IMG/VR virus record: IMGVR_UViG_3300017992_000085
Span: 1 to 23,852 of that record
Source: a virus
Length of the DNA stretch: 23,852 nt
Direction: 5' to 3' (one strand)
Below are positions 2,305-9,816 of the stretch, one piece after another. Each line of letters begins with the position of its first letter. The stretch's first letter is position 1. The notes beneath the pieces are model-generated. The model was not told the origin of the DNA, searched no databases, and saw only the letters and a list, made by a program, of their open reading frames with translations. The position numbers were made by a program, and so were the translations under genes.

Positions 2305-4239
2305 GTGGCGCGGCATCGCTACGTCACGCACGGTCCGTACGTCGGGGCCGCGGGCGTGCCGGTGCGGTGGGACCACGCCATCGACCCGCTGGCCGTCACG
2401 CCGCTACGGGCCGCGGACGATCCGCGCTGGACGCGTGTGGCCCTGATGGGCAGCCCCCAACGCGCGGGCAAAACGGAACTCGGCACCAACTTCATCCTCG
2501 CCGCGCTCGAGCAGGCCGGGACCAACGTGTTCTATTTCGCCGCGTCCGCCGTGCTCGCGCAAGACGTGTGGCAAAAGAAAATCGCGCCCGCCCTGCTGGC
2601 CAGCGCGAAAACCGAACCGCTGCTGCCGCTGGACCGCGAGGCCGCGGGTACCAAAGAGCGGCGCGACTTTACGAACAAGACCAGCCTGTTCGTACGCGGC
2701 TCGGAATCACGCGGGGCGCTGGCGTCGGCGACGGCGCCGCGGATCGTGGCCGATGACGTGCAGGCCATGCGCGTGTTCCCCGAGGGCGACCACCCGGTCG
2801 ATGTGGCGCAGGAACGCGCCGACGCCTACCCGGCCGATCAGCGACGCTACCTGCTGCTCGGACAGCCGGGCACGGTGGACGACTACCTGGCGCGCACGCT
2901 GTTCGCCTCCGCGTTCTACGTGCCGTTCGTCCCGTGCCCCAAGTGCGGGACATATCAACTGCTCGAGTGGGGTCGGCTGCAATTCGACAGCACCAACCCG
3001 CGTAAGGCCCGCACGGGCGCGTGGCTCAAGTGCGCGCACGCGGATTGCCACCACAAGATTCGCCGGCGGTCGGTGCCGGGGATGCTCCGCGATCACCTGT
3101 GGGTGTCCACCCCGCCGGGCAAGAACTGGATTACGGAACCGACCGAGGGCGGAACGTGGATCGACCCGGCGCAGCACGCGGTGTACCCGGACACGCGGCG
3201 CGACACGACCGTGGCGGGGTTCTGGCGCAGCGCGCTCTACTGGCGGTTCGCGGATTGGGGGGCGCTCGCGGCCGAGTACCTCGAGGGGCGCGGCAATCCC
3301 GAGAAAGTCATCAACTTCCAGAAGCGGATTCGGGCCGTGCCGTGGAAAGAGCCCGAGGTCGATGAGGACAAACTGACGGAGGCCGAGTTGACACAGCATG
3401 CCGCGAAGTATCCGGCCGGGCACATACCCGACGCGGCCGACGTCGTGACCGTCGGCGTCGATGTGCAATCGGGCTACGTCTATTACATCGTGCGGGCGTG
3501 GCGCAAAAGCGACGGCGAGACGTGGCTCATCGACCTGGGCACGTGCGGCAAACCGCTCAAGGGCCTGGCCGACGAGTCGAAGCGGGACCGCGGCAAGCGG
3601 CGCGCGGTCGCGATCGCCGAAGGGCTTGAAGAGGTCGCCGAACTCGCCGCGGCGGGCTGGCCAGTCATCGACGCGGCCGGGGAGATCATCGGCCAGCGCA
3701 GCGCGACGATTTGCGTGGTGGACCGCGGGTACGAGAAAGACGTGGTCGGTGGCTGGTGGCAGACGCGCGGGCGGCAGCAGAACTGGCGCATGGTGCTCGG
3801 GCAAAAGGCGGGGATCCGGCTCGCGCTCTGGCCGGCCAAGCCGCGCCTGGACGACCGGCAGCGCCCATATCGCCCGCTCGACGTGAGTCAGGCGAAAACC
3901 GTACTGCGCCGCCTGCTACGCATTCCGCGCGGGCAGAGTGGTTACTGGCACTTCCCGGCCGCGGGCGTGCACACGAACACGGTGCGGGCCTACCACCGGC
4001 ACCTGACCAGCGAGGAGTGGCGCACGGACTTCAAGACGCCGCGCTGGGAAAAAATCGCTGGCGTGCGGGCGAATCACTTTCTGGACTGCGAAGTGTACGG
4101 CCTGTGCGCGGCGCGCGGGCTGGGCGTGGCGCTGGCGGGTTTCGCGCGGCCCCCGGAACAGACGCGGACGCGCGGGTACGCCCGGCGCGCCGCCGGCGGA
4201 CAGCGCCGGTCGGGCGGGAGTTGGAGGATTGGACGATGA
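2305..4239 (+). CDS. terL: Terminase large subunit, GpA family (packaging ATPase and nuclease)
   Basis: This is the DNA-packaging motor and nuclease. In the 644 residues counted from the GTG at 2305, an ATPase half has a Walker A-like SPQRAGKT (50-57) and a Walker B-like IVADD (147-151). A zinc-binding insertion follows (C211, C214, C243, C248). The nuclease half has Asp in VGVDVQ (386), Asp in VVDRGYE (473) and Asp in FLDCEVY (594), which is the usual GpA pattern. The GTG is probably not the real start. The same frame stays open upstream to 2233 and encodes LPEW just before residue 1, in register with the EWA..YYL segment of lambda gpA. No ATG, GTG or TTG exists in that extension. An ATT at 2236 preceded by GAGG (2222-2225) is the best candidate. 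The C-terminal 30 residues are a low-complexity Arg/Gly tail. Confidence 0.95.
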   Translation: MARHRYVTHGPYVGAAGVPVRWDHAIDPLAVTPLRAADDPRWTRVALMGSPQRAGKTELGTNFILAALEQAGTNVFYFAASAVLAQDVWQKKIAPALLASAKTEPLLPLDREAAGTKERRDFTNKTSLFVRGSESRGALASATAPRIVADDVQAMRVFPEGDHPVDVAQERADAYPADQRRYLLLGQPGTVDDYLARTLFASAFYVPFVPCPKCGTYQLLEWGRLQFDSTNPRKARTGAWLKCAHADCHHKIRRRSVPGMLRDHLWVSTPPGKNWITEPTEGGTWIDPAQHAVYPDTRRDTTVAGFWRSALYWRFADWGALAAEYLEGRGNPEKVINFQKRIRAVPWKEPEVDEDKLTEAELTQHAAKYPAGHIPDAADVVTVGVDVQSGYVYYIVRAWRKSDGETWLIDLGTCGKPLKGLADESKRDRGKRRAVAIAEGLEEVAELAAAGWPVIDAAGEIIGQRSATICVVDRGYEKDVVGGWWQTRGRQQNWRMVLGQKAGIRLALWPAKPRLDDRQRPYRPLDVSQAKTVLRRLLRIPRGQSGYWHFPAAGVHTNTVRAYHRHLTSEEWRTDFKTPRWEKIAGVRANHFLDCEVYGLCAARGLGVALAGFARPPEQTRTRGYARRAAGGQRRSGGSWRIGR

Positions 4240-5134: not shown

Positions 5135-5655
5135 AGTCCGCGAGCGATACGATCACGCGGTTCGTGGACTGGGGCGTGGGGCTGCTGTCCCCGGCCCGCG
5201 CCGTCCGCCGGCAACACTTCCGCCGCATGGCCCGCGACCCGGACTACCGCGCTTCCGTGCTGGCCCTGCTGCGAGCGCGCGGCTACCGCGCGGCCAAAAA
5301 GGGTAACAGCACGCCGTGGCGCGGGGGGGCCGGGGACGCGGACACCGAGATTTCGGGCGACCTGCCCGAACTGCGGAACCGGGCGCGCGAAGCGGAGCGG
5401 GACGACCCGATCGGCAGCGGCCTGCACCGCACGTTCAAAACGAACGTCATCGGCACCGGCCTGCGCCCGCAGGCGCGCACCGGCGATACCGACAAGAACC
5501 GGCGCATCGAGGCGTTCTGGAAAGCGCGCCAAAACGAACTGTTCCCGGCCGAGGACATTTCGTTCCACGAGGCGCAGAAACTCCCTACCTCTCGGTCATC
5601 CGCGACGGCGACGTGTTTATCAAGCACGCGGCCCGTGGGCCGGACGAGCCGCTGA
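5131..5655 (+). CDS. Portal protein, N-terminal part (before frameshift)
   Basis: The ATG at 5131 overlaps the stop of the preceding gene. The frame encodes the N-terminal region of a lambda-family portal: a helical start, then ELRNRAREAERDDPIGSGL and NVIGTGLRP. These match the RARxxxRNNP and NVIGTGI block of lambda gpB relatives. The portal sense holds to about 5583 (FHEAQKL). Beyond that the frame gives a meaningless Ser/Thr-rich tail of 24 codons to a stop at 5655, while the portal sequence continues in another frame from 5586. The portal is the dodecameric ring at the capsid vertex through which DNA is packaged and ejected. Confidence 0.85.
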   Translation: MKSASDTITRFVDWGVGLLSPARAVRRQHFRRMARDPDYRASVLALLRARGYRAAKKGNSTPWRGGAGDADTEISGDLPELRNRAREAERDDPIGSGLHRTFKTNVIGTGLRPQARTGDTDKNRRIEAFWKARQNELFPAEDISFHEAQKLPTSRSSATATCLSSTRPVGRTSR

Positions 5656-6962
5656 CGTTCGAACTCGTCGAAGCCGACCGCGTGGCCACGCCGCTGAGTT
5701 ACCAGCCGGCCGAGGGCCACGAACTCCGCGACGGCGTGGAACGCACGGCGCTGGGCGTGCCCGTGGCCTACCACGTGCGCAAGCACCATCCCGGCTCCAA
5801 CACCGTGACGAGCATCGGTAAGTCCGACGAATACGCGCGCATCCCGAAAGAACTGTGTAAACACCTGCGCCGTATCGGCCGCAGTGGGCAGACGCGCGGC
5901 GTACCGCTGTGTCACGCGGTCCTGCAGGAACTGCGCGACCTGGACCTGCTCATGCTCGCGGCGCTGAAGCGCACGCAGATCGCCGCCTGTCTGGCCGCGT
6001 TCATCACGAGCAAGGGCGGCGTCGATGATCTGCTGCCGACGACGGCGGATAAGTACGGCTACCAACTCGACCAGGACATCGAACCGGGCATGCTGTTCAA
6101 GCTCGACCCGGAAGAGTCAATCCAGACGCTGATTCCGAACTTCCCGACCCCCGAACTCGTGCCGTTCATCGTCGCGATCGCGCGGCGGATCGGCGCGGCG
6201 GTCGGCGTGAGCTGGCAGGTCGTGTTGCGCGACTTCGGCGACTCCACGTATTCGTCGGCGCGCACGGACTTGCTTGAAACGCGGCAGACGTACACCGATG
6301 AACGGTCCTGGTTCGCCGAGGACCCGTTGGGCTGGCTCTGGCACGAGGTCATGGCGGACGGCCTGCTGCGCGGCGACCAGCGCCTGTGGGGTGTGACGCC
6401 GGCGGACATCGGCCTGGTGGCCTGGATTGGCAACGGGTGGAAGTGGGTGGACCCGCTCAAAGAGGCCAAGGCGGTCGAGACGGCGCTCAAGGCCGGACTC
6501 ACGACGCTGCAATACGAACTCGCGCAACTCGGCCTCGATTGGGAGGAGGTCATTGCGCAGCGCCAGCGCGAAAGAGTGGCCCTCGAAGCGGCCGGATTGC
6601 TGGACAACGCGGCGACGGCCAAACCGATGGAGGATATCGCGCGGGCCGTGCGGAGCGGGGTGCCGATCGGCGTGGCCGAAGCGCGCGGCGCGCTGGGACT
6701 GCCGGTCGAGACGCCGGACGGTCCGCGGCTGCGCTTCAACGATCAGGACGTACTCCAGTACCACGTCGAGGCGGGCGTGTTGACCATCAACGAGATCCGG
6801 GCCGTGCTGGGACTGCCGCGTGCGGCGTGGGGCGACGTGCCGGTCCGCAAGACGGGCCTCAGCCCGGTGAGCGGGGAAGAGCACGCGGGCAGCGAAATTG
6901 AGACCGAGGACGAAGCGCGCACACTGGTCGGCGCGGGAGGCAATGGGCATGGGCACTTGTAA
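5586..6962 (+). CDS. Portal protein, main C-terminal part (after frameshift)
   Basis: From the TAC at 5586 the frame reads YLSVIRDGDVFI, the expected continuation of the upstream portal fragment, and stays open for 458 codons. Features typical of lambda-family portals include ELRDLDLLMLAALKR, a WQVVLRDF segment, DLLETRQTYTDERSWF and the C-terminal DWEEVIAQRQRE helix. The joined product would be about 610 residues, somewhat longer than lambda gpB (533). No start codon with a good ribosome site lies at the beginning of this part, so it is unlikely to be an independent gene. An unbroken gene would need one extra base at 5584-5586. The stop is 99 bases before the protease. Confidence 0.88.
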   Translation, partial: YLSVIRDGDVFIKHAARGPDEPLTFELVEADRVATPLSYQPAEGHELRDGVERTALGVPVAYHVRKHHPGSNTVTSIGKSDEYARIPKELCKHLRRIGRSGQTRGVPLCHAVLQELRDLDLLMLAALKRTQIAACLAAFITSKGGVDDLLPTTADKYGYQLDQDIEPGMLFKLDPEESIQTLIPNFPTPELVPFIVAIARRIGAAVGVSWQVVLRDFGDSTYSSARTDLLETRQTYTDERSWFAEDPLGWLWHEVMADGLLRGDQRLWGVTPADIGLVAWIGNGWKWVDPLKEAKAVETALKAGLTTLQYELAQLGLDWEEVIAQRQRERVALEAAGLLDNAATAKPMEDIARAVRSGVPIGVAEARGALGLPVETPDGPRLRFNDQDVLQYHVEAGVLTINEIRAVLGLPRAAWGDVPVRKTGLSPVSGEEHAGSEIETEDEARTLVGAGGNGHGHL

Positions 6963-7061: not shown

Positions 7062-8054
7062 ATGAGCACCACGGCGACGGAAACGACGGAGAAGCCGGTC
7101 ACGCGGGCGCTGCTCGACAGCGTGACCGTACGGGACATCGACGAGGAGCAGCGGCGCGCTACGTTCGTGGCCGCAACCGAGAACGGGGTGCAGACGTGGC
7201 AAGGGCCGGAACACCTGCGCATGGGCGGCGCGGACCTGACGCGCTACCGCAAGAATCCGGTCGTACTCGACACGCACAACCGCTGGGAAGTCGGGGCCGT
7301 GATCGGCAACGCGACGGTCAAGACGGCCAAGCGCGAACTCATCGCGGAGGTCACGTTCGCCGAAACCGAACGCGCGACTGAGGCCTGGCAACTCATCAGC
7401 GGCGGATTTGTGTCCGCCCTGAGTATCGGGTTCATCCCGCTCGAAGTGGAAATCGTATCCGACGGGGAGGTGTCCGGGCGCGGCGAGAACCGCATCGAGG
7501 GTCCGGCGCGGATCGTCCGCCAGTGGGAACTGTTCGAGATTTCGGTCGTGCCCGTGCCGGCCGACGCGGACGCGCTCAAACGCATGTTTTTCGCGACGGA
7601 CGGCCTGGCCGAACTGCGCGACCTCGTGTGCCAGATCGAGCGACACGTACAAGCCCTGACCGGGGCTACTGAACAACGCCACTCTCAGATGGAGGTATCC
7701 GCGATGGATACAAACGACAAGCCGACGGCAGCCCCGGCGACAGAAGAGGGCGCCACGACCGAGACGGCCACCGAGCGGGTTCTCCTCGAGCCTGAAACCG
7801 AAGAGGAGACGCTGCGGCGGCGGCTAATGGCCGTGACGCCCAAGGCGCTGCACGAGTTCGCCGAAAGCGTGCTGCTCAAGGGCGGCACGTTCGAAGAAAT
7901 GCGCGCGGTCGTGCAGGCCGAGCACGCGCAACGGGCGGAGGCGGTCGGGACTCCCGCGCCGACGCAGGGCAAGCGCCAGGACGCAGGCCGCGACGAGCCG
8001 AAGATGGCGGACGTGTCGTCCGACCAGTTGGCGCGCGCGCTCAACAGTCTGTAA
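7062..8054 (+). CDS. HK97-type prohead protease with C-terminal scaffold-like extension
   Basis: This is a 330-residue protein. Residues about 20-180 form the HK97-family prohead serine protease: the His of LDTHNRWEVG (H72), the Ser of ALSIGF (S121) and the acidic WELFEISVVPVPAD block (E156, E159) that follows. The protease trims capsid and scaffold proteins inside the prohead. Residues about 215-330 are extra. They are acidic and Thr/Ala-rich, then helical (FEEMRAVVQAEHAQR), ending in a short helix DQLARALNSL. That profile suits a scaffolding domain. A strong internal start (see the nested gene at 7704) suggests this part is also made alone. The ATG follows GAGCGAGG with about 8 bases of spacing. 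Confidence 0.92.
   Translation: MSTTATETTEKPVTRALLDSVTVRDIDEEQRRATFVAATENGVQTWQGPEHLRMGGADLTRYRKNPVVLDTHNRWEVGAVIGNATVKTAKRELIAEVTFAETERATEAWQLISGGFVSALSIGFIPLEVEIVSDGEVSGRGENRIEGPARIVRQWELFEISVVPVPADADALKRMFFATDGLAELRDLVCQIERHVQALTGATEQRHSQMEVSAMDTNDKPTAAPATEEGATTETATERVLLEPETEEETLRRRLMAVTPKALHEFAESVLLKGGTFEEMRAVVQAEHAQRAEAVGTPAPTQGKRQDAGRDEPKMADVSSDQLARALNSL
7704..8054 (+). CDS. Candidate nested, in-frame scaffold gene (lambda Nu3-like arrangement)
   Basis: Inside the protease gene and in the same frame, the ATG at 7704 has a GGAGG at 7691-7695 with an 8-base spacer, one of the better ribosome sites in the window. Translation from here gives a 116-residue acidic, helical protein identical to the protease C-terminus: a disordered Thr/Ala/Glu start, a helical core (KALHEFAESVLLKGG, FEEMRAVVQ) and a C-terminal helix. 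Lambda makes its scaffold Nu3 from an in-frame start inside protease gene C. The arrangement here is the same, with an HK97-type protease. Function is inferred from position, size and composition. The start signal itself is seen directly. Confidence 0.5.
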   Translation: MDTNDKPTAAPATEEGATTETATERVLLEPETEEETLRRRLMAVTPKALHEFAESVLLKGGTFEEMRAVVQAEHAQRAEAVGTPAPTQGKRQDAGRDEPKMADVSSDQLARALNSL

Positions 8055-8066: not shown

Positions 8067-8585
8067 ATGGCAACGAATCAAATGCGCTGGGTCGGCAATC
8101 TGGACGGCGCCAGCGAACCGCGGGTGATGCTCGGCAAGTTTCAGGCGGGCGCCACGCAGGCCATCAAGCGCGGCGAACTGCTGGAACTCACGGGCGACAC
8201 GAACACGGCCTGGGTGCCGCTCGACTCCGATTTCGGGATGAACTCGAACGTCGCGATCGCCAACGAGGAAATCAAGTCCGGCGACCGGGCTGGTTACTAC
8301 GAAATCATCGTCCCGCGGCCGGGCGATATCTTCGAGTTCGACCTGGCGGCCGCGGGCAACGATGGCGCCGGTACGGCGGTGTACTACAGCGACAGCGAGA
8401 CCGTGACCGTGACGGCCGGTTCCAATGTGCTGGGCTACATCGTGGGCCAGGAGCACTACCCCGACAAACAGGGACACCTCACGGATGATGCCAGCGGCGA
8501 CGCGGGCACGACCATCCGTAGCGTGTCGAAGGCCAGAATCGCAATCAAGGCGGCGTGTAGCTACTACTCGGCGCTGGTGGTCTAA
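8067..8585 (+). CDS. Probable capsid decoration/cement protein
   Basis: This 172-residue, beta-rich protein lies between the protease/scaffold and the major capsid gene, where lambda has its decoration protein gpD. Visible elements include QAGATQAIKRGELLELTGD near the start, alternating strands rich in Val, Gly and Asp, and a hydrophobic C-terminal strand (YYSALVV). The perfect ribosome site implies high expression, as expected for a protein present in hundreds of copies. It is longer than gpD (110 residues). I recognise the general style of capsid cement proteins but no firm family signature. Confidence 0.7.
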   Translation: MATNQMRWVGNLDGASEPRVMLGKFQAGATQAIKRGELLELTGDTNTAWVPLDSDFGMNSNVAIANEEIKSGDRAGYYEIIVPRPGDIFEFDLAAAGNDGAGTAVYYSDSETVTVTAGSNVLGYIVGQEHYPDKQGHLTDDASGDAGTTIRSVSKARIAIKAACSYYSALVV

Positions 8586-8598: not shown

Positions 8599-9816
8599 AT
8601 GGTAGCCACCAAGAATAAGCCGCGCCTGTCCCCGACGATCGTCATCGACGACGGCGTGCTGCGCGAGGACGCGCTGCGGACGCTGGCGCAAAACGAGCCG
8701 GGCCGCTTCATGGAGACCGTCCGACAGGCGATCGCGGACGGCAATTTGTCCTGGCAGACGCTCCGCAATCTGCCACGGCTATGGAACGCGCTGGCAGACA
8801 TTGAAGTCGAGACACACATCGACATGGCCGGGCAGCGGCGGGCCATCATGGCCAGCGCCTTCCCGCTCCTGTCGGGCGCGCTGACCGTGGCGGGCATCAA
8901 CGCCGCGTACGAAGCCGTGCCGACGATCGGCGAGCAGCTCGTCACGGACTTCGAGGACAATAAGCGCGTGTCGGAATTCGCATCTCTCACCAGCGAGGAC
9001 ACGGGCGTCGATCGCGTGGACGAAACGAAGGACTTTCCCGAGGTTGGCGCGGGCGAAGAGAAGTACGAAATCCGCTCCAAGCGCAACGGGCGGCGGGTCA
9101 GCATCACGGCCGAGGCGATCGAGGAAAACGACCTCGCGAACATCGTGCAGCGCGTCAACCAATTGGGCGAGATTGCGGCCGAGTTCGTCGAAGAGCAGAC
9201 GCTGCGGCGCGTGTGTGACATCGACGGTTCGGCCGCGTCGGCCGCGGAGCCGTACGTGTTGCGCCCCAACGGCGCCGGTACGTCGCTCTACTCGACGACC
9301 GCGAACACGCCGGGCACACGCGCCCCGAGCGGGACGCGCGTGAACAGCAACGCGCTGGCGGACGAGTCCGACCTGGAGGCCGTGCGGGACGTGCTGGCCG
9401 CGATGAAAAACTCGCGCGGCAAGCGGATCGCCATCCCCATGAGCCGCTGCAAACTGCTCGTGCCGGATGCGCTGGCCCCGACGGCCATGCGCCTGCTCAA
9501 CAGCGAGTACACGCCGGACGTGCCCAACGAGTTCAACCCGTGGGGACCGCGCGGCAGTTACCGGCCGGCGCTGGTCAGTTCGCCGAAACTCGACGACCTG
9601 TCCACCACGGCGTGGTATCTCGGCTGGTTCGAAAAGCAGTTCCTGCGTAAGTGGAAGTTGCGCTTCGAGTACGTCACGCTGACCGACTCGACGGAATCGT
9701 TCCTGAAATCGCGGCTCGCGTTTCAGGCGCGTGTCGCCTGGGACTGCGAGATCGGTGCCACGGACTACGTGTACGTCGTGCAGAGCCTGAGCGGCACATC
9801 GGCGCCCACGCCGTAA
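8599..9816 (+). CDS. Major capsid protein, HK97-like fold (inferred)
   Basis: This is a 405-residue protein. The order fits HK97-fold capsid proteins: an N-terminal helical arm (ALRTLAQNEPGRFMETVRQAI), a region like the extended E-loop (DFPEVGAGEEKYEIRSKRNG) followed by RRVSITAEAIEENDL, and a long helix with RVNQLGEIAAEFVEEQTL. A central domain has EAVRDVLAAMKNSRGKRIAIP and the C-terminal LKSRLAFQARVAWDCEIGA segment, typical of capsid protein ends. Position after the protease and decoration genes, size and the very strong ribosome site all support the call. The frame extends upstream of 8599, but the Shine-Dalgarno sequence and the end of the previous gene settle the start. Confidence 0.88.
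   Translation: MVATKNKPRLSPTIVIDDGVLREDALRTLAQNEPGRFMETVRQAIADGNLSWQTLRNLPRLWNALADIEVETHIDMAGQRRAIMASAFPLLSGALTVAGINAAYEAVPTIGEQLVTDFEDNKRVSEFASLTSEDTGVDRVDETKDFPEVGAGEEKYEIRSKRNGRRVSITAEAIEENDLANIVQRVNQLGEIAAEFVEEQTLRRVCDIDGSAASAAEPYVLRPNGAGTSLYSTTANTPGTRAPSGTRVNSNALADESDLEAVRDVLAAMKNSRGKRIAIPMSRCKLLVPDALAPTAMRLLNSEYTPDVPNEFNPWGPRGSYRPALVSSPKLDDLSTTAWYLGWFEKQFLRKWKLRFEYVTLTDSTESFLKSRLAFQARVAWDCEIGATDYVYVVQSLSGTSAPTP

Follow-up and report, generated by a model that had tools for sequence, protein, structure and literature searches.

The window, i.e., the whole stretch of DNA analysed here, is an IMG/VR virus record of 23,852 bases. Its head genes run from a gpA-type terminase through a lambda-family portal, an S78 protease gene and a decoration-like gene to the capsid gene, an arrangement that matches the A-W-B-C/Nu3-D-E order of lambda. 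The parts described from the portal to the capsid gene lie on the plus strand. The portal gene (5448..6962; PF05136, E 3.4e-49) is frameshifted in the window record near 5585, where a single base is missing in comparison with two sibling contigs (L002 and L004); the loss probably reflects an error in sequencing or assembly, and the siblings have intact copies. The portal is followed by a full-length open reading frame (ORF) of 330 aa (7062..8054), predicted to encode a prohead protease of the Peptidase_S78 family (Pfam PF04586, E 2.1e-8, aa 72-171) that ends in a scaffold domain. Next, in the position of lambda D, comes the gene of a decoration-like protein (8067..8585) with a weak match to the PF09956 cement family (E 0.0045, below cut-off). 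The major capsid protein is encoded by a separate gene (8599..9816; PF25209, E 4.7e-17) that has its own Shine-Dalgarno (SD) sequence (AAGGAGGT), and a search of this protein against named phages returned 0 matches. Elsewhere in the window, ORF 206-1453 joins a ParB N-terminal domain to an N6/N4 DNA methylase.

The protease had been called HK97-type in an earlier note made from the letters alone, and this call agrees with the Peptidase_S78 profile, against which the 330-aa protein scores 34.9 bits (curated cut-off 21, aa 72-171); PHROG major head/protease families match it along aa 12-313. No sequence relatives of the protein were found in the PDB. An AlphaFold2 model built with 20 relatives (mean pLDDT 77) shows a protease fold at aa ~14-168 (7101..7565), where mean pLDDT is mostly 83-96, and the best PDB fold match of the model is the T4 gp21 protease (Foldseek prob 0.99, E 6e-3). 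His72 and Ser121 are invariant across 20 sequences aligned with the window protein, and given what is known of the S78 family we take them to be the candidate catalytic residues. Beyond the fold lies a helical linker (aa 180-215; 7599..7706), poorly conserved, with variable alignment columns, which bears the SD motif described below. Downstream of it the model has disorder at 216-242, a helical domain predicted with confidence (247-292) and a helix at the C-terminus (320-328). M215 is modelled where helix 180-215 meets the disordered stretch, ca. 40 residues beyond the catalytic domain. The earlier placement of this ATG exactly at the end of the protease domain therefore needs correction, as the domain already ends at aa ~168-176 (Pfam S78 to 171, AlphaFold fold to ~168).

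From M215 to the stop codon (7704..8054) the gene would encode a nested scaffold protein of 116 aa (12.6 kDa, pI 4.78). This part has no match of its own among the named families of Pfam and PHROG, and the profile of its family matches the segment that precedes the capsid protein in fused protease-scaffold-capsid ORFs of relatives (hhalign prob 96%, E 3.8e-9). The acidic, helical and scaffold-like character ascribed to it before is in keeping with its pI, the modelled helices, its homology to the scaffold of the fused ORFs and the lambda gene order, so that its assignment as a putative scaffold is well supported by sequence comparison. Such an assignment would identify the missing scaffold for a large group of uncultured lambda-like viruses.

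The junction between linker and scaffold reads ATGGAGGTATCCGCGATG (7689-7706). It holds an internal SD motif, GGAGG, at 7691..7695 (GGAGGT to 7696), then a spacer of 8 bases, TATCCGCG, and an in-frame ATG (M215) at 7704..7706, exactly as the earlier note had described, and this ATG, whose position is kept in relatives, is the predicted start of the nested scaffold. It is codon 215, in frame with the ATG at 7062, and the first stop is that of 8052-8054, i.e., the nested frame is 3'-coterminal to the protease ORF 7062-8054. The same is seen in the sibling contig L002, which comes from another metagenome and is identical in DNA over 7062-8054; an independent contig identical over the whole ORF rules out two genes joined by assembly error. 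Duplex energies with the anti-SD are −10.6 kcal/mol at the internal site, −8.7 at the protease start, −12.1 at the decoration gene and −12.7 at the major capsid gene. None of the other internal ATG, GTG or TTG codons of the 7062-8054 ORF falls below −5.0, which leaves M215 as the only SD-bearing internal start there; M210 (7689) was ruled out as a start, being without SD (+0.4). Among all 455 ATGs of the window on both strands, 12 reach −10, and several of these 12 are real starts.

Taken by itself, the site is real yet inconclusive, because in the window linker alone a strong SD-ATG arises in 7% of codon shuffles and in 55% of synonymous shuffles. The amino acids at the SD are M-E-V, and given these an SD is retained in 55% of synonymous recodings, for which reason we dropped the single site as proof. 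With these amino acids the site could have arisen by chance, which also fits a reading in which the full-length protease-scaffold fusion alone is made and the SD-like site is fortuitous. Phage P2 offers a precedent: its gpO works without a nested start, and an SD-ATG looked for at the gpO domain boundary was not there. It is conservation that decides the case, and it leaves this reading improbable, since the SD-ATG recurs at one junction in many divergent relatives, is specific to the reading frame and exceeds the expectation from shuffles.

Relatives were gathered by portal and protease scans of viral contigs, plus a few named phage records, which gave 151 usable S78 ORFs, 121 of them below 80% identity. 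By classes defined by tail length, 9 of the 121 consist of the protease only, 49 combine protease and scaffold (P+S) and 59 continue through the scaffold into the capsid protein within a single ORF (P+S+M); the remaining 4 are truncated at contig ends. In relatives 34-47% identical, the SD-ATG lies at the same junction despite the unconserved protein sequence of the linker, and an alignment of 20 sequences shows variable linker amino acids with the M column kept. At a conventional threshold (dG <= −5), the junction SD-ATG is present in 23 of the 25 P+S genes in the cluster that contains the window (28 members) and in 30/32 and 18/21 of the two main fused-ORF clusters, although these cluster counts are not independent events, the sample having been found via similarity to the window and its relatives. 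The conservation of the internal site, proposed earlier as a check, was also found overall: 59 of the 108 non-redundant P+S and P+S+M ORFs have a strong SD-ATG at most 45 codons from the protease domain, above both the codon shuffle (7.8 ± 2.6 expected, maximum 16 in 200) and the synonymous shuffle (25.6 ± 3.6, maximum 37). Most strong-SD in-frame ATGs (61/73) fall 0-50 codons beyond the protease domain. A strong SD stands upstream of 27-42% of the in-frame linker ATGs, compared with 1-5% of out-of-frame linker ATGs and of ATGs elsewhere, and the nested M is followed by a residue typical of starts (A/S/T/N/K/D/E/P) in 95% of cases vs 54% for other Met. RNA structure near the nested starts is weak but no different from shuffles; selection for low structure was ruled out as an explanation, this being a base-composition effect only. 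As read from these sequences, the internal SD-ATG is a conserved feature of a large and separate protease family, S78.

One S78 cluster of 15 members keeps a linker ATG without SD. Similarly, S78 protease-scaffold genes of Bacteroidota-type phages (the L089-L112 group and L200-L202) have the junction ATG, with A/T-rich sequence upstream in place of an SD. We considered the 15-member cluster as a counter-example and dropped it as such, given that its loci seldom use SD at any gene and that its relatives on bacterial contigs are assigned to Bacteroidota (Chitinophagaceae, Flavobacteriales and Bacteroidaceae). Over 87 loci, the strength of the junction SD follows SD use by the other genes of the same virus (Spearman −0.59).

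A free scaffold might also be released if the full-length protein cut itself in the linker, with no internal initiation, seeing that prohead proteases cut scaffolds and that the linker region 180-242 is exposed and partly disordered in the model. We regard this as very improbable: cleavage requires neither an in-frame Met nor an SD, yet both are conserved, and in the split relative FP_Epona a real stop divides the gene at the junction, where the scaffold-capsid part begins as its own ORF with AGGAGG-ATG. Least probable is a role of the SD in ribosome pausing between domains, or its being a relic, without present use, of past gene fusion (split and fused states both occur among the relatives, so that fusion events have taken place), as the SD lies at initiation spacing from an in-frame ATG and is absent from out-of-frame ATGs of the same linkers, and a relic would decay, whereas this SD has persisted in the different clusters and varies with SD use by the host.

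Phages with known nested scaffolds provide both a calibration and a comparison. For Mu I and its homologues in ten relatives (11/11), the annotated Z start is the site with the strongest internal SD, at −5.9 to −7.4, i.e., weaker than in the window. As in the window gene, the scaffold Z starts in frame within the protease gene I at an SD-preceded ATG, but the protease is Mu-like_Pro (PF10123), on which Mu I scores 330 bits, and not S78; the window protein has no match to PF10123 at E <= 1. The similar first residues of the two scaffolds (MNETLRKLLARLGV vs MNEKLRKLLISRGM) prompted a comparison of Mu Z with the window-family scaffold by hhalign, which was not significant (prob 0.1% for P+S and 3.9% for the fused group) and leaves homology to Mu Z unsupported. 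A conserved internal start with SD has also been reported in the Mu-like phage PaMx73 (PMC4378225).

In lambda C/Nu3, as in the window, the protease gene contains a 3'-coterminal in-frame scaffold, follows a lambda-family portal and precedes the decoration and capsid genes; the difference is that lambda C is an S49/ClpP-type protease (PF01343 match), the window protein being of PF04586 S78. The earlier note had likened the window gene to the logic of lambda C/Nu3; the likeness holds for the predicted nested scaffold, its own SD and the gene order, but this logic is not unique to lambda, as Mu I/Z and Mu-like phages have it too. Within lambda C itself, the ATG of codon 309 (L194:2543, lambda 5342) is preceded by AGGAGG (dG −9.7), and the 131-aa product from that codon shows an end-to-end match to PHROG 8399 'head scaffolding protein'; the annotated nu3 start (L194:2333, lambda 5132) is without SD (−2.7). 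Herpesvirus UL26/UL26.5 likewise has a 3'-coterminal in-frame scaffold within the capsid protease gene, but there a separate promoter, and not an internal ribosome site, gives rise to the second product. In HK97, an S78-type protease (gp4) adjoins a capsid protein (gp5) whose assembly requires a scaffold function, but the two are separate genes and the scaffold is the N-terminal delta domain of the capsid protein (PMC8508860). In the open-licence papers searched, we found nothing relevant on internal starts in S78-type protease genes. The economy of a nested scaffold is already known from lambda and Mu; by its sequence, the window gene is a predicted case of the same arrangement within a capsid protease gene, but with a protease of a different family, S78.

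We consider it highly probable that M215 of the 7062-8054 gene is a functional nested start. The window gene very probably carries an internal start from which its scaffold end would be made separately. The nested in-frame scaffold start first suggested for this locus gains support from the conserved junction site, the specificity for in-frame ATGs, the excess over shuffles and a behaviour like that of Mu Z, the short product itself being predicted from these features. One gene would then give two 3'-coterminal proteins: initiation at 7062 would yield the S78 protease with its C-terminal scaffold domain (~36 kDa), and independent initiation at the SD-ATG of 7704 would yield the 116-aa scaffold alone, presumably in excess. 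Scaffold and capsid protein would co-assemble into the procapsid, and the shared C-terminal domain could bring a few protease molecules inside, i.e., a scaffold-tethered protease, which would later cut the scaffold and itself. Such a nested start would explain how unequal amounts of protease and scaffold come from one gene.

The fused S78 ORFs (e.g., VP882, phiHAP-1, PHROG 617/4523) have a homologous protease and scaffold, and their junction likewise holds an in-frame ATG, in most cases with SD. They lack a stop behind the scaffold, so that initiation at this ATG would yield the scaffold joined to the capsid protein. Protease, scaffold and capsid are joined in one ORF, with the junction ATG in frame and usually SD-preceded, in L010-L017, L115-L147, L041, L042 and L305-L316; these ORFs are annotated merely as 'major head protein' or 'protease', and the nested product is annotated in none of the fused-gene phage records examined. 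The ATG with the strongest SD lies in the linker in 46/59 of the P+S+M ORFs (expected 6.6), and where exactly one linker ATG exists, leaving no room for site selection, dG is <= −5 in 27/33. The junction ATG is present in all 12 cultured VP882-like and similar fused-gene phages examined, and its SD ranges from poor (−2.7) to good (−7.6); VP882-like FoX3, MQ-4 and Mano keep the ATG with a poor SD. For two cultured fused-ORF phages, the predicted nested start is M217 (HeidiAbel_Bas97, which grows on laboratory E. coli K-12) and M190 (RcCronus). The nested start likely extends to the fused genes, less uniformly so in cultured VP882-like phages, and within the sampled data its predicted presence inside fused protease-scaffold-capsid genes is new. 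A structure model of one fused relative (L013) was too poor for use (mean pLDDT 46).

In the F10/MD8 group (L195 and relatives L253-L275), which has ClpP-type fused capsid genes, an in-frame ATG with an SD-like site lies right after the protease domain. The junction ATG has an SD in 14/15 F10 relatives, this SD being partly encoded by conserved residues, and the scaffold-capsid part of the group is related to that of the S78-type fusions (PHROG 133). MD8-like phages have been described as having a single gene for protease, scaffold and capsid protein, and the description (PMC8508860) does not mention an internal start. We postulate, as a fairly probable generalization, that in S78 and ClpP-type F10/MD8 phages the apparent protease-scaffold-capsid polyprotein genes are two-product genes, in which the internal SD-ATG would supply the bulk of scaffold-capsid precursor and the first codon a few protease-bearing copies. 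Stops, decoration genes and different proteases would be gained and lost at the junction start, which would thus act as a border between modules, and the N-termini now annotated for the 'major capsid protein' in such phages would be wrong. For fused-ORF phages the nested start is a prediction of where the capsid precursor truly begins, and without it their 1:1 ratio of protease to capsid would puzzle. In phiHAP-1 (L041:4067), the deposited major capsid gene begins within the protease domain, and reading upstream in its frame meets no stop as far as an SD-preceded ATG at 3908.

A relative with a reduced scaffold was also recovered. In L199 (ORF 6007-6738), which is 62% identical to the window across the protease domain, the scaffold is shortened to 61 aa, i.e., most of the helical segment is gone, and what is retained is the junction GGAGGG-ATG and the C-terminal peptide DISDADLLRAIGG, as at the end of the window protein, a pattern that suggests that the short C-terminus may bind capsid.
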